NCBI GenBank assembly: GCA_009786195.1
Contig: WQTP01000040.1
Location: 1 to 35,834 of the forward strand
Length of the DNA stretch: 35,834 nucleotides
Direction of reading: 5' to 3'
DNA from: Candidatus Saccharimonadota bacterium
Lineage (GTDB): Bacteria; Patescibacteriota; Saccharimonadia; Saccharimonadales; Saccharimonadaceae
Below are positions 472 through 34,661 of the stretch, one piece after another. Positions within the stretch are counted from its first letter, which is position 1. Each line of letters opens with the position of its first letter. The translations under genes were made by a program, and so were the position numbers. Below the pieces are notes generated by a model. The model did not search any database. It was not told the DNA's origin and was given only the letters and a program-made list of their open reading frames with translations.

Positions 472-548
472 TGGTACGCCCGATACGATTCGAACGTACG
501 ACCTTTGGCTCCGCAAGCCAACGCTCTATCCAGCTGAGCTACGGGCGC
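472..548 (-). tRNA. tRNA-Arg (anticodon GCG), CCA encoded
   Basis: Cloverleaf read by eye: GCGCCCG TA GCTC AGCTGGATA GAGC G TTGGC TTGCGGA GCCAA AGGTC GTACG TTCGAAT CGTAT CGGGCGT A CCA. Confidence 0.88.
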
Positions 549-18805: not shown

Positions 18806-19036
18806 CTAATGACCAATCGCACTGATTAGGTTGAAAGGATTATAACCACTTCCTGGTTTGTAGAATCGTGATTTTGGCGTATTTGTCGTGATCTCGCGGG
18901 GCGCATCATTATTATTAGACGTGATGGGCCGTTGCATAATAATACTAAAACCCGGACATCTGCCGAAAGCTCGTTCATCGCACATATTACAATTCACTTC
19001 ATTGCCAGCACATTTAAAATCATTGTTATTTTCCAT
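18806..19036 (-). CDS. Small Cys-containing hypothetical protein (76 aa)
   Basis: AAGGAGT Shine-Dalgarno, structured 5' leader and promoter; MENNNDFKCAGNEVNCNMCDERAFGRCPGF... Confidence 0.6.
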   Translation of the reverse strand: MENNNDFKCAGNEVNCNMCDERAFGRCPGFSIIMQRPITSNNNDAPREITTNTPKSRFYKPGSGYNPFNLISAIGH

Positions 19037-19057
19037 TTTTTACTCCTTATTAAACTT

Positions 19058-19141
19058 AAAAAGACTTCCTGATCGAAGCCTATTTTTCTGGCTGTGTTAT
19101 GCGAGTTTACGCTCGGGCTTCAATCAAACTAAAACACAGCC
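19058..19141 (-). ncRNA. Pseudoknot leader RNA, copy 1, with overlapping intrinsic terminator (cis-regulatory candidate)
   Basis: P1 19133-19141/19090-19098; pseudoknot GATTGAAGCC 19116-19125 with GGCTTCGATC 19071-19080; terminator GGCTTC-gatcag-GAAGTC-TTTTT 19058-19080. Confidence 0.75.
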
Positions 19142-19203
19142 TTGGCAACATAAGGCCTAGCAACAAGCTGTTATTTAGTTGATTAAAACCAATCATAAGA
19201 ACG

Positions 19204-19232
19204 ATTCTAGCACGGGTTTAATTCTTTGTAAA
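19204..19232 (-). promoter_or_regulatory. Promoter TTTACA-N17-TAGAAT with TGn extended -10
   Basis: -35 at 19227-19232, -10 at 19204-19209. Confidence 0.7.
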
Positions 19233-19260: not shown

Positions 19261-19370
19261 GCTCCCCCAACATTCCCCCAGCAAGCCCGTCTCCTCCTCG
19301 CTTCGCCTCGTCGTCAACTGTCTGGCGGTTTGGCGCCAGACTAGGCATGCTGGGAGAAGTTGGGGTCGCT
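19261..19370. repeat. Palindromic repeat family A, copy 1
   Basis: 110 nt, roughly 90% identical by eye to 30014-30123; self-complementary arms. Confidence 0.85.
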
Positions 19371-23383: not shown

Positions 23384-23599
23384 CTAGTTCCACCCGGATT
23401 CGTATGGACGAGATATGGGCCTGCGCCAGTCCTGGTCAAACTTTATGATCGCGCTAAGCCGTCGCGACAACTTGCCATTAACATCACCATTAATACCATC
23501 ACCCAGTATTTGTTCGCAATGCGCTGCAGTGATACCTATTCCAACAATGCTTTGAATTCTTTCCCGTTCATTAGTTGGTGGTAGTTCAAACATTTCCAT
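23384..23599 (-). CDS. Small hypothetical protein (71 aa)
   Basis: AAGGAGT Shine-Dalgarno; downstream of the second pseudoknot leader. Confidence 0.5.
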   Translation of the reverse strand: MEMFELPPTNERERIQSIVGIGITAAHCEQILGDGINGDVNGKLSRRLSAIIKFDQDWRRPISRPYESGWN

Positions 23600-23689
23600 T
23601 TCTTACTCCTTATCACCCAGCTCTCGAAACGTTCCGTTCGCCGGACAAACCAGCAAGTGACGGGGTTTGAGGGTGGGCTTATTAAACTT

Positions 23690-23775
23690 AAAAAGACTTC
23701 TCGATCGAAGCCCCTTCTCTGTCGGCTGTGTGGGTGGGCCTCAGGCCCGGGCTTCAATCAATTCTAAACACAGCC
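23690..23775 (-). ncRNA. Pseudoknot leader RNA, copy 2, with overlapping intrinsic terminator
   Basis: P1 23768-23775/23724-23731; pseudoknot 23750-23759 with 23703-23712; terminator GGCTTC-gatcga-GAAGTC-TTTTT 23690-23712. Confidence 0.75.
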
Positions 23776-23825
23776 GCCGGTATCCGTAAGTTAGATAATA
23801 TCGATGATTGAAACTCATGCCAGAC

Positions 23826-28739: not shown

Positions 28740-31292
28740 TTATTTCTTCTTTCGACCGAATCGACCGCGTTTTGGTTTGTCGGGCGCGGTGGCGAGCATT
28801 TCTTTGGCCTGGTCGGCGGTGATTTTGCTGGGGTCGGTGTCTTTGGGGACGCGGACGTTTTTCTTACCATCGGTGATATATGGGCCATAGCGGCCGTTTA
28901 GGATCCTTAAACCACCGCCGAAATCAGCAATGTTTTTGGCTTGGTCGGCGGCTAATTTAGCGGTAATCAGGTCGCGAGCTTCGAACTCTGTTATGGTGAA
29001 CGGATCGTGATCTTTGATGCTAACAAAAGTCGAACCGACCTTGACATATGGTCCAAAACGGCCGATGTTGGCGATAATTTCTTGTCCATCATCGGTAGTG
29101 CCGACGCTGCGCGGTAGTCGGAACATGGTCAATGCTTGGTCGAGCGTGATTGTTTCGAGTCGTGCGTCGGTCGGAAAGTTCGCGAAACGTGGTTTTTCGG
29201 ATTTATCATCGGTCTCGCCCATCTGTAACATCGGACCGAATCGACCAATGCGCGCCAAAATGGGCCGACCGGTTTTCGGATCGACGCCGAGGTGCCTGGC
29301 GCCCGCGACGGCCGAACGGTCAATCGTCCGCGCACCATCGATTAATTTGTGAAACGGGCCGTAAAAATCGTGCAACATCTTGATTTTATCAAGTTTACTC
29401 TCGGCGATTTCGTCAAGTTCGGTTTCGATGCGCGCGGTAAAACCATAATCGACGATGTCGGTAAAGTGGTCGCCGAGGAAGTCGCTGAGCACCGTGCCGC
29501 TGGCCGACGGCAAGAGCTTGCCTTTGGTCGCGCCGGTTTTTTCGATAAGGATTTGACGTGCTAGAATAGGCTGTTTGGCCAGGGCCAAATCTCTCCCCTC
29601 AACACGCAATTTTCGCCCGTCGTCACGGGGGAAATCGCTCTCTCCTCGTCGTAACTGCGGACGGTTTCGGAGAGAAATCTGGCCCTGGCCAACTGGCGCT
29701 AGTCGAAGCTCAACCACCTCCCGCTCTACCCCGTCACTGTCGCCCCTCTCGGCGTAGCCGCGCGTCTGAATTGTGTCGATAATCGTGGCGTAAGTGCTAG
29801 GTCGGCCGATGCCTAATTCTTCTAATTTTTTAACCAAAGAACCTTCAGTATAACGCATCGGCGGCCGGGCGAAAGTCTGGCGCGCGATGATTTCTTTGGC
29901 ATTCAGTTCGTCACCAGCGGCCAGCGGCGGTAAAATCTCTTCCTTATTCGTACCATACATTTTAAGGAAACCGTCGAATAGTACGACTTCGCCCTTAGCG
30001 GTAAATTTGGGCTGCTCCCCCAACATTCCCCCAGCAAGCCCGTCTCCTCCTCGCTTCGCCTCGTCGTCGACCGTCTGGCGATTTGGCGCCAGCCCAGCCT
30101 TGCTGGGAGAAGTTGGACTCGCTTGTCTCGAGTCGATTTCGATCGTTGCGGTTGTTCGCTCGATTCTCGCGTCGGCCATTTGGCTGGCCAGCGTGCGGCG
30201 GCGAATGAGGTCGTAGAGTTTTTGTGCGCGCGGATCGTCGCCGGCCGTTTCGCGAGCGGGGTCGGTCGGGCGGATGGCTTCGTGGGCCTCTTGGGCGCCA
30301 GCGGATTTGGTTTTGAATTTGCGAATCTTTAGATAATCTTCGCCAAAATTCTTTTCAATATATTTACCCGCTGCGCCCAAGAATTGATTCGACAAATTCG
30401 GCGAATCAGTACGCATATAGGTAATCATACCCGATTGATAGAGTTGTTGCGCCAGGCTCATCGTTGTCCGCGCCGACATGCCGAGCCGAGCGTTGGCGTC
30501 CTGTTGCAGCGTCGACGTGGTGAACGGCGGCAGGGGTTTTCGCGTCGCGGCGTTGGTTTCGATATCCGCCACGGTGAATTTGGCGTCGATCAAACTTTCC
30601 AAGAATTCTTTGGCGGAATTTTCGTCCGGAAAATCGGTCGAGAGGACGGCCTTGACCGGCGCGTCATTTTTCGTAAATTCACCACTGATTTTGAAAACAA
30701 AGTTCGATTCGAATTCGGCGATTTCCCTTTCGCGCTCGACCAATAATTTGACGGCCGGTGATTGAACGCGGCCGGCCGATTTACCGCCGGGGACTTTGCG
30801 CCACACTACTGGGGACAGTTCGAATCCGACCAGGCGGTCGAGAATCTGGCGGGCTTGCTGGGCTTTAACTAAATCCATGTCGATTTTACGGGGATTTTTG
30901 ATCGCTTCATCGATGGCGGATTTGGTGATTTCGTGAAAAGCGATGCGGTTGGTTTTTATCGGGTCGAGTTTCAGCGCTTCGCACAAATGCCAAGCAATCG
31001 CCTCGCCTTCGCGGTCCTCGTCAGTGGCCAACCAAACGGTTTTTGCCTTCTTGGCGGCTGCGGCGAGCTGCACGACGGTTTTTTTCTTTTCCGAATCAAC
31101 TGTGTAAATTGTGGCGAAATCATGGTCGGTATCGATGGCTTTTTGCCCCTTACCCAGCTCCTTGTCGGTCGGAATACTGCGAATGTGCCCGATGCTGCTC
31201 ATCACCGTAAAATCCTTGCCCAAATAACCCGCAATAGTCCGAGCCTTGGCCGGGCTCTCAACGATAACCAAATTGTTTATGATTTCCGACAT
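28740..31292 (-). CDS. topA: DNA topoisomerase I carrying two in-frame repeat-derived insertions
   Basis: NLVIVESPAKARTIAGYLG, WLATDEDREGEAIAWHL, MITYMRTDSPNLS, EAHEAIRPTD, LEELGIGRPSTYATIIDTIQTRGYAER, C-terminal IGRFGPYVKVG repeats. Confidence 0.95.
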   Translation of the reverse strand: MSEIINNLVIVESPAKARTIAGYLGKDFTVMSSIGHIRSIPTDKELGKGQKAIDTDHDFATIYTVDSEKKKTVVQLAAAAKKAKTVWLATDEDREGEAIAWHLCEALKLDPIKTNRIAFHEITKSAIDEAIKNPRKIDMDLVKAQQARQILDRLVGFELSPVVWRKVPGGKSAGRVQSPAVKLLVEREREIAEFESNFVFKISGEFTKNDAPVKAVLSTDFPDENSAKEFLESLIDAKFTVADIETNAATRKPLPPFTTSTLQQDANARLGMSARTTMSLAQQLYQSGMITYMRTDSPNLSNQFLGAAGKYIEKNFGEDYLKIRKFKTKSAGAQEAHEAIRPTDPARETAGDDPRAQKLYDLIRRRTLASQMADARIERTTATIEIDSRQASPTSPSKAGLAPNRQTVDDEAKRGGDGLAGGMLGEQPKFTAKGEVVLFDGFLKMYGTNKEEILPPLAAGDELNAKEIIARQTFARPPMRYTEGSLVKKLEELGIGRPSTYATIIDTIQTRGYAERGDSDGVEREVVELRLAPVGQGQISLRNRPQLRRGESDFPRDDGRKLRVEGRDLALAKQPILARQILIEKTGATKGKLLPSASGTVLSDFLGDHFTDIVDYGFTARIETELDEIAESKLDKIKMLHDFYGPFHKLIDGARTIDRSAVAGARHLGVDPKTGRPILARIGRFGPMLQMGETDDKSEKPRFANFPTDARLETITLDQALTMFRLPRSVGTTDDGQEIIANIGRFGPYVKVGSTFVSIKDHDPFTITEFEARDLITAKLAADQAKNIADFGGGLRILNGRYGPYITDGKKNVRVPKDTDPSKITADQAKEMLATAPDKPKRGRFGRKKK
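29575..29702. repeat. Palindromic repeat family B, copy 1 (inside topA)
   Basis: Arms TTGGCCAGGGCCA/TGGCCCTGGCCAA; core nearly identical to 34555-34661. Confidence 0.85.
30014..30123. repeat. Palindromic repeat family A, copy 2 (inside topA)
   Basis: 110 nt, same length as copy at 19261-19370 and roughly 90% identical by eye. Confidence 0.88.
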
Positions 31293-32978: not shown

Positions 32979-33008
32979 TTGACACGCTGGGCTAACGTCT
33001 GCTAGAAT
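32979..33008 (+). promoter_or_regulatory. trpB leader promoter TTGACA-N18-TAGAAT
   Basis: -35 32979-32984, -10 33003-33008. Confidence 0.8.
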
Positions 33009-33015
33009 ACTGACC

Positions 33016-33069
33016 ATGCTTAAACAAAATAACAACTTGTGGACCTGGCTCTGGCTTTTGCCGGACTAG
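33016..33069 (+). CDS. trpL: trp leader peptide MLKQNNNLWTWLWLLPD
   Basis: 17-aa ORF with three Trp codons within five (WTWLW), leaderless start, upstream of trpB. Confidence 0.85.
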   Translation: MLKQNNNLWTWLWLLPD

Positions 33070-33134
33070 GTTTGCTGTTGCTATTTTGCACCCACCGCGC
33101 GCCTAGTCTGGCCATAACTCGCCCAGACTATTTT
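33060..33134 (+). promoter_or_regulatory. Transcription attenuator with mutually exclusive hairpins
   Basis: A 33060-33070 GCCGGACTAGG pairs with B 33102-33112 CCTAGTCTGGC; B (33104-33111) alternatively pairs with C 33123-33130 CCAGACTA followed by TTTT. Confidence 0.85.
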
Positions 33135-33153
33135 AATTATAAGGAGAAAATTC

Positions 33154-34518
33154 ATGAAAACTATTCCACACAAAATCTATTTAAGTGAAAACGAAATGCC
33201 GCGCCAATACTACAATCTGCGGGCTGATATGCCGAAAAAACCAGCGCCCATGTTGCACCCAAAAACGCTGAAACCGGTAGTTGCGGCTGATCTCACACCA
33301 GTGTTTTGCAAAGAGTTAGTTCGGCAAGAGTTAGATGATACAACTCGATATTTCAATATTCCAAGGGAGATTCGCGATTTTTACAAGATTTTTCGTCCGT
33401 CTCCACTCATTCGCGCTTATGGGTTGGAAAACGAACTTAACACACCAGCCAAAATCTACTATAAATTCGAGGGTAATAATACCAGCGGCAGCCACAAACT
33501 AAATTCGGCGGCGGCCCAAGTGTACTATGCACGAGCTGAGGGCGTCGCAGCGTTAACGACTGAAACTGGCGCTGGCCAATGGGGGACGGCACTGGCCGAA
33601 GCCTGCGCTCATTTTGGCATGCCGTTGACCGTTTACATGGTGCAAGGTTCGTACGAACAAAAACCATTTCGAAAAACTATTATGCGTACTTTTGGTGCAG
33701 AAATCATTGCCAGTCCCAGTAATACCACCAACATTGGTCGTGAAATGTTAAAGAAATTTCCGGGTACTAGCGGCAGCCTCGGCTGTGCGATTTCTGAGGC
33801 AGTAGAAAAAGCTGTTTCATCAGAAAATACACGCTATGTGCTAGGTTCGGTACTTAATCAGGTCTTGCTACATCAATCAATTATTGGGTTAGAAGCTGAA
33901 GCGGCCTTTAATAAAATTGGTGATTATCCAGATGTGATTGTTGGTTGTGCTGGCGGCGGCAGTAATTTAGGTGGACTAATTGCACCATTTATGCGTGATA
34001 AATTACTGGGACGTAAAGATATTGACATTGTGGCTGTCGAACCGAAAAGTTGTCCATCATTGACGCGTGGTCAGTTTACTTATGATTTTTGCGATACGGG
34101 ACATCTGACACCACTAGCGAAAATGTATACTCTGGGTTCGGAATTTATCCCGGCGCGCGATCATGCTGGAGGATTACGTTATCATGGTATGTCGCCGATA
34201 GTTTCGCAACTCTACGCGGATGGCCAGTTGCGCGCTGAAGCTTACAAACAAACAGAAGTTTTTGAAGCGGCGACGTTGTTCGCTCGTGTTGAGCAAATCT
34301 TGCCAGCACCCGAGTCGGCTCATGCTATCAAAGGCGCAATTGAAATCGCTAAAAAATGTCGCGATAATAATCAGTCGAAAACGATTCTGTTTGGATTATC
34401 TGGTACTGGTAATTTTGATTTGTCAGCGTATGAGCAATTCCAAAATGGCAAAATGGTCGATATCATTCCGACTGATGCTGATATCGCGCGATCACTGAAA
34501 ACTTTACCGAAGGTTTAG
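33154..34518 (+). CDS. trpB: TrpB2-type tryptophan synthase beta-like PLP-dependent enzyme
   Basis: RPSPLIRAYGLENEL, KFEGNNTSGSHKLNSA, TETGAGQWGTALA, GCAGGGSNLGGLIAPF, GLRYHGMSPIVS. Confidence 0.93.
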   Translation: MKTIPHKIYLSENEMPRQYYNLRADMPKKPAPMLHPKTLKPVVAADLTPVFCKELVRQELDDTTRYFNIPREIRDFYKIFRPSPLIRAYGLENELNTPAKIYYKFEGNNTSGSHKLNSAAAQVYYARAEGVAALTTETGAGQWGTALAEACAHFGMPLTVYMVQGSYEQKPFRKTIMRTFGAEIIASPSNTTNIGREMLKKFPGTSGSLGCAISEAVEKAVSSENTRYVLGSVLNQVLLHQSIIGLEAEAAFNKIGDYPDVIVGCAGGGSNLGGLIAPFMRDKLLGRKDIDIVAVEPKSCPSLTRGQFTYDFCDTGHLTPLAKMYTLGSEFIPARDHAGGLRYHGMSPIVSQLYADGQLRAEAYKQTEVFEAATLFARVEQILPAPESAHAIKGAIEIAKKCRDNNQSKTILFGLSGTGNFDLSAYEQFQNGKMVDIIPTDADIARSLKTLPKV

Positions 34519-34554: not shown

Positions 34555-34661
34555 AGCCCCGGGTCTCTCACCTTTGGCACGCAATTTTCGCCCGTCGTCA
34601 CGGGGAAAATCGCTCTCTCCTCGTCGTAACGGCGGACGGTTTCGGAGAGAAACCCGGGGCT
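34555..34661. repeat. Palindromic repeat family B, copy 2 (between trpB and pth)
   Basis: Arms AGCCCCGGGT/ACCCGGGGCT; core matches 29575-29702. Confidence 0.85.

Follow-up and report, generated by a model that had tools for sequence, protein, structure and literature searches.

The window analysed in this study is a stretch of 35,834 nt from a Candidatus Saccharimonadota bacterium (contig WQTP01000040.1). On its minus strand, a structured leader, referred to as copy 1, was found upstream of a gene for a 76-aa Cys-containing protein, and secA was located downstream. The 76-aa protein contained only one Leu residue, had no known link to leucine and gave no match in a Pfam search. The features of the leader and of the gene are listed below, with the regions numbered according to the pairings discussed later.

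19204 to 19232, minus strand: promoter TTTACA-N17-TAGAAT, with -35 TTTACA at 19232-19227, a 17-nt spacer and -10 TAGAAT at 19209-19204
19107 to 19196, minus strand: putative leader-peptide open reading frame (ORF) of 29 codons, Leu type, MIGFNQLNNSLLLGLMLPRLCFSLIEARA then stop, without a Shine-Dalgarno (SD) sequence; the stop lies in the P2 loop
19165 to 19191, minus strand: region 1, 5' strand of the predicted protector, with its pairing partner at 19141-19116
19133 to 19141, minus strand: P1 5' arm GGCTGTGTT, region 2a
19116 to 19125, minus strand: pseudoknot 5' strand GATTGAAGCC, region 2b
19102 to 19115, minus strand: P2, the inner hairpin, CGAG 19115-19112 with CTCG 19105-19102
19090 to 19098, minus strand: P1 3' arm AACACAGCC
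19071 to 19080, minus strand: region 3, pseudoknot 3' strand GGCTTCGATC, whose GGCTTC doubles as the terminator 5' arm
19075 to 19080, minus strand: terminator 5' arm GGCTTC
19058 to 19068, minus strand: region 4, terminator 3' arm GAAGTC (19068-19063) and TTTTT (19062-19058)
18806 to 19036, minus strand: gene of the regulated 76-aa orphan protein, SD GGAG at 19046-19043, ATG at 19036

The original prediction had described P1, the inner hairpin and a competing terminator, together with the promoter and the small Cys-containing product, and all of them were present where it had placed them. The proposed 10-bp pseudoknot with one G-U pair was also found, with GGCTTC (19080-19075) common to pseudoknot and terminator, and the suggestion that these two structures exclude each other was borne out, both being conserved in relatives. 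The computed energies were -29.0 kcal/mol for the protector fold (region 1 with region 2), -7.6 kcal/mol for the terminator and -14.2 kcal/mol for the pseudoknot, the last approximated as a duplex. Such a set of structures is far beyond chance. The earlier riboswitch reading overlooked that the leader is an open reading frame, which crosses P1 and the pseudoknot 5' strand and ends in the loop of the inner hairpin.

A second copy had been announced as well and was located at 23775-23678, and a third copy was found on a different contig of the same genome. The features of copy 2 are as follows.

23741 to 23818, minus strand: leader ORF, Tyr type, MSFNHRYYLTYGYRRLCLELIEARA then stop, predicted leaderless, -10 TAAAAT at 23831-23826; automatic assignment had put the start 9 nt farther upstream
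23678 to 23775, minus strand: P1, P2, pseudoknot and terminator
23384 to 23599, minus strand: 71-aa ORF, with an insertion-like stretch between the terminator and the ORF

In copy 2, this stretch adds about 65 nt (window 23677-23613, minus strand) between terminator and SD; it has CCCACCC...GGGTG ends, is flanked by ATAAG on both sides and resembles a small insertion with target duplication. Copy 3 encodes MNLNRTQFFFNFVFPRLCSDLIEARV then stop. The variable portion of the three leader peptides was a run of Leu, Tyr or Phe, and their common ending RLC..LIEARA was the translation of P1 and the pseudoknot strand.

Several other elements were observed in the window. A classical Trp attenuator, which has no pseudoknot, precedes trpB (32979-33154, plus strand), and its leader is kept in the sister genome G001 as MSKRNSNLGAWLWPMPD then stop.

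33016 to 33069, plus strand: leaderless leader of trpB, MLKQNNNLWTWLWLLPD then stop
33061 to 33070 and 33102 to 33111, plus strand: antiterminator arms CCGGACTAGG and CCTAGTCTGG
33105 to 33111 and 33123 to 33129, plus strand: terminator arms AGTCTGG and CCAGACT, followed by a T run

A dispersed repeat of about 110 bp occurs at 19261-19370 and 30014-30123, with at least eight copies in the genome; one copy lies in frame within topA and one between the Leu attenuator and an hpf/raiA-like gene. An 80-bp repeat with 95% identity was found inside topA (29603-29682) and downstream of a peptidyl-tRNA hydrolase-like gene (34578-34657), and a 39-nt direct repeat (325-363 and 451-489), one copy of which overlaps the 3' end of tRNA-Arg (472-548, minus strand), is perhaps an integration remnant.

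The motif and its covariation were sought in relatives, and both were found. A DNA search of the window genome and 60 relatives revealed copies in five genomes; a marginal 18-nt match in a sixth did not hold up as a copy. Going by sample labels, we infer that the genomes closely related to that of the window are MAGs from termite guts. With the covariance model R1, at least 14 copies were detected in at least 7 of 394 genomes of the family, and a covariance search of the order gave copies in at least 93 of 393 genomes at E<=0.05, these genome counts being lower bounds with 10-12 candidates scored per genome. A set of 97 elements from the order Saccharimonadales was assembled, in which P1, the pseudoknot and the terminator covaried. 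A pattern scan of an 85,462-species collection returned 46 stretches, all in Saccharibacteria-type MAGs except one labelled Chlamydiae, and a phylum-wide covariance search, in which 10-12 candidates were scored per genome, gave matches in the same order alone. Within the sensitivity of these searches, the element thus occurs in Saccharimonadales only. The exception (L133, CAJCIR010000029.1, titled 'Chlamydiae bacterium') corresponds to G521:C29 of the order and is probably mislabelled in its public title. The idea that a repeat had recently dispersed was rejected as the sole origin of the copies, since they span many families with compensatory changes.

Covariation was evaluated on 95 distinct aligned relatives. 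P1 was paired in 98.6% of cases. Compensatory changes affected all 8 of its pairs, 9 of the 10 pseudoknot pairs and 6 of 6 terminator pairs; the observed covariation scores of these helices were reached by 0 of 500 shuffles. Since P1 and the terminator were used in fitting the alignment, the figures for these two lean towards the model and those for the pseudoknot do not; in some elements the pseudoknot alignment was weak or misregistered. Full swaps of the pseudoknot were found among elements (GATTGAAGCC/GGCTTCGATC, TACTGAGGCC/GGCCTCAGTA and GAGTGAAGCC/GGCTTCACTC), and the native pseudoknot duplex had an energy of -17.6 compared with -14.5 for foreign partners (p=6e-13, with the energy approximated as a duplex). 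The P2 hairpin varied between elements yet was far more stable than shuffles (p=3e-16). Upstream of P1, region 1 forms the 5' half of the ORF, often encodes MSFN..KQ or KH, and pairs as a protector with region 2, the 26 nt from the P1 5' arm through the pseudoknot 5' strand. The protector duplex scored -17.4 for native pairs, -14.5 with foreign region 2 (p=6e-12) and -10.8 with shuffled sequence (p=7e-16), and the pairing accounted for the conserved unpaired bases of the linker that joins P1 to the pseudoknot. A short hairpin formed by the last control codons with the P1 5' arm also scored above shuffles and was set aside, the longer protector fitting the data better. The protector pairing therefore yields the classical set of an attenuator, namely protector 1:2, antiterminator 2:3 (P1 plus pseudoknot) and terminator 3:4. 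The best reading of these data is that the pseudoknot would act as the antiterminator.

The coding content of the leader was conserved in the same set. In 87 of 97 elements, an in-frame leader peptide carried, at a distance of roughly one ribosome footprint ahead of P1, a run of Leu, Ile/Val, Phe or Tyr, and the stop codon of the peptide lay 14-44 nt past the P1 start; this conservation suggests that the leader ORF is translated. The 12 residues preceding xLC were 30.6% Leu, compared with 6.1% in the downstream proteins. A Leu codon was located five codons ahead of CTG in 78 of the 87 elements; given the usual size of a ribosome footprint, a ribosome with that codon in its A site would therefore have its leading edge at about the first base of P1. 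The control residue fitted the regulated pathway wherever the gene was known. At isopropylmalate synthase-type (leuA) loci (n=15), the runs were pure or nearly pure Leu, while Ile/Val runs were found at threonine deaminase (ilvA) or acetolactate synthase (ilvB) loci (n=5, one with ilvB second in line); leader composition differed between the two groups (Mann-Whitney p=3e-4). Control residues were assigned by simple counting, and the labels of mixed L/I/V leaders are fuzzy. A DAHP synthase leader contained the Phe run FFFFFAF, and a Rossmann dehydrogenase gene preceded by a YYYAPPY leader was read as a candidate prephenate-dehydrogenase-like gene.

Only 5 of 87 elements had an SD-like motif ahead of the leader ATG, compared with a strong SD before 90 of 96 downstream genes. 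A TAnnnT hexamer mostly ended 6-9 nt upstream of the leader ATG, and a gap of 7 nt between -10 and ATG was counted by eye in the three copies of the genome and in the trpB leader. Because the -10 is close to the ATG and an SD is rare before it, we predict that the leader ORF is translated from a leaderless mRNA.

We also analyzed the composition of the regulated proteins. Proteins made under scarcity of an amino acid should use little of it, and depletion was found: relative to expectation, the sensed residue had a mean frequency of 0.83 (permutation test with each homology cluster represented by one protein, p=0.0004). Small Leu-sensed proteins contained 4.2% Leu, compared with 6.3% in other small proteins and 9.8% in the protein set of the window. 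The two small Phe-sensed proteins had zero Phe, and the DAHP synthase ORF had 2 Phe in 338 residues. Since regulated proteins, orphans included, are depleted in the sensed residue, these results support a response that would be on when the cell is starved. Many regulated genes encode 50-130-aa orphans, for which no family match was obtained in the sample tested. The small regulated proteins of termite-gut relatives (L002, L007, L009, L013) and that at 18806-19036 in the window contain Cys in the arrangement C-x2/3-C ... C; those tested had no Pfam match, and they are perhaps candidate small metal-binding proteins.

About a quarter of the elements (25) lay within 2 kb upstream of rplJ, and Rfam identified L10 leaders downstream in two leuA/ilvA loci. 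At such sites (e.g., L030, L043, L048, L070, L071 and L098), a small variable ORF or leuA/ilvA accompanied the attenuator immediately ahead of rplJ and the L10 leader. Some of the small ORFs share a 'V.PYAGTE...ANMP' pattern, and the cargo gene there is exchanged from genome to genome.

Every testable defining feature of leader-peptide attenuators was found, including an ORF with a codon run, the fit of residue to pathway, mutually exclusive and conserved terminator and antiterminator, and a protector. On this sequence evidence, we interpret copy 1 as a ribosome-mediated transcription attenuator that would sense leucine through charged tRNA-Leu, with a probability of about 0.9. Transcription would start at the AUG of the leader ORF or within a few nucleotides of it, and the first ribosome would therefore load on a leaderless mRNA. 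If no ribosome loads, region 1 would pair with region 2 (the P1 5' arm and the pseudoknot 5' strand), region 3 would remain available for pairing with region 4, and transcription would terminate. If leucine is ample, the ribosome would pass the Leu codons to the stop in P2 and sit on region 2, so that the pseudoknot is blocked and the terminator forms. Where the stop lies at +38 to +44, the terminating ribosome would cover P2 and the P1 3' arm more than the pseudoknot strand, and the blocking step would therefore differ in detail. If leucine is scarce, we infer that the ribosome would stall on the Leu run and mask region 1, with its leading edge at about the first base of P1 and region 2 left free. 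P1 and the 10-bp pseudoknot could then form and trap region 3, termination would not occur, and the small downstream protein would be made. Sister elements with Ile/Val, Phe or Tyr runs would control genes for those amino acids in the same manner.

Three other explanations were weighed against leader-peptide attenuation. Saccharibacteria commonly live on Actinobacteria, and the element could belong to the actinobacterial LEU elements or descend from them, possibly acquired from such hosts, a proposal that we regard as unlikely. LEU elements are located upstream of leuA and combine a Leu-run leader peptide with a pseudoknot fold; their Leu codons pair with the SD box in a base stem, and a terminator is absent (Seliverstov et al. 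2005, PMC1262725). Among our elements, however, a Leu-run leader ORF upstream of leuA was found in the leuA subset only, and the Leu-run:SD stem was unsupported (native -7.55 vs. foreign -7.65, p=0.24). In addition, the Saccharibacterial elements have a covarying terminator, and the scan of the 85,462-species collection found the motif in no actinobacterium. Because the base stem is unsupported and LEU, as described, is set apart by having no terminator, the element was not filed as LEU.

The original prediction had proposed a riboswitch or other attenuating RNA. The second term stands, but a ligand-binding riboswitch does not agree with an RNA that is almost wholly coding and whose runs fit the regulated enzymes. 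On the riboswitch account, the P1/P2/pseudoknot core would be an aptamer for a metabolite or ion, and the ORF would be incidental. A compact, conserved H-type pseudoknot overlapping a terminator is indeed found in many transcriptional riboswitches. However, the ORF and its residue-specific runs are conserved and fit the genes, the linker bases are conserved though unpaired because they are protector partners, and a single aptamer could not serve genes for Leu, Ile/Val, Phe and Tyr as this one fold does. The original prediction had not recognised the motif as a named riboswitch class, and this was upheld: searching the element against Rfam at the gathering threshold and at relaxed ones produced no match. 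Likewise, neither T-box nor the leader families of Rfam (Leu, Phe, Trp, His and Thr) gave a covariance-model match at the gathering score. Thus the element is probably not a metabolite-binding riboswitch, and we consider that explanation very unlikely. A nascent-chain arrest peptide of the SecM/ErmC type, in which the C-terminal RLCFSLIEARA or GLCFSMVEA would stall the ribosome, is more improbable still: the C-terminal sequence looks conserved in 87 of 97 elements and secA lies downstream of copy 1, but the sequence that encodes the conserved residues is that of P1 and the pseudoknot strand, the stop positions vary and some come ahead of 'IEA', the variable part of the peptide fits gene function, and at least six further elements hold the run in another reading frame with the same conserved RNA and a different C-terminus, so that the C-terminus is not what matters.

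Leader-peptide attenuation by the Saccharibacterial element is thus a known mechanism in what is, on computational support, a well-supported new form. A literature search, with subscription papers and preprints outside its scope, returned no paper on amino-acid attenuation in Saccharibacteria, and a Saccharibacterial attenuator family with Leu, Ile/Val, Phe and Tyr variants appears to be previously undescribed. Gene regulation in Patescibacteria is little understood. The codon runs provide a readable label of the amino acid for each gene, dozens of orphans included, and therefore give functional clues for proteins without homologues. Leader-peptide attenuation would here employ a pseudoknot as its antiterminator, with transcription and translation coupled from the first base by a leaderless leader ORF. 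Saccharibacteria are very small, and most of them live on other bacteria. We tentatively suggest, while judging it somewhat doubtful, that a portable, residue-swappable sensor on one pseudoknot scaffold controls a hidden starvation regulon of largely unrelated small orphans poor in the scarce amino acid, which may help these mostly host-dependent bacteria to obtain it or to limit ribosome production. If this regulon exists, the quarter of elements just upstream of rplJ would hint at a limit on ribosome production. Inducible expression has been called a missing tool in Saccharibacteria (PMC11665869), and the elements are natural candidate parts for it.

The nearest published element combining a leader peptide with a pseudoknot is the actinobacterial LEU element (PMC1262725). 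Upstream of leuA, both combine a leader ORF that contains a Leu run with a conserved pseudoknot, whereas the Saccharibacterial element has a terminator and also serves other amino acids and genes. The SAM-II, preQ1 and fluoride riboswitches likewise use an H-type pseudoknot that excludes the expression platform; the Saccharibacterial leader differs from them in being coding and in having no Rfam match. In mycobacteria and corynebacteria, leaderless uORFs provide a regulatory peptide read from a leaderless mRNA, and the leaderless peptide ORF is shared with these systems, whereas the RNA structures differ. The enterobacterial trp, his, leu, ilv and phe attenuators have in common with the Saccharibacterial element a short ORF with control codons, the 1:2, 2:3 and 3:4 pairings and the fit of residue to pathway. 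In contrast to their simple hairpin antiterminator, the Saccharibacterial one is an H-type pseudoknot (P1 plus the 10-bp pseudoknot), the leader ORF is leaderless, and one conserved scaffold carries varied codon runs upstream of many orphan genes.
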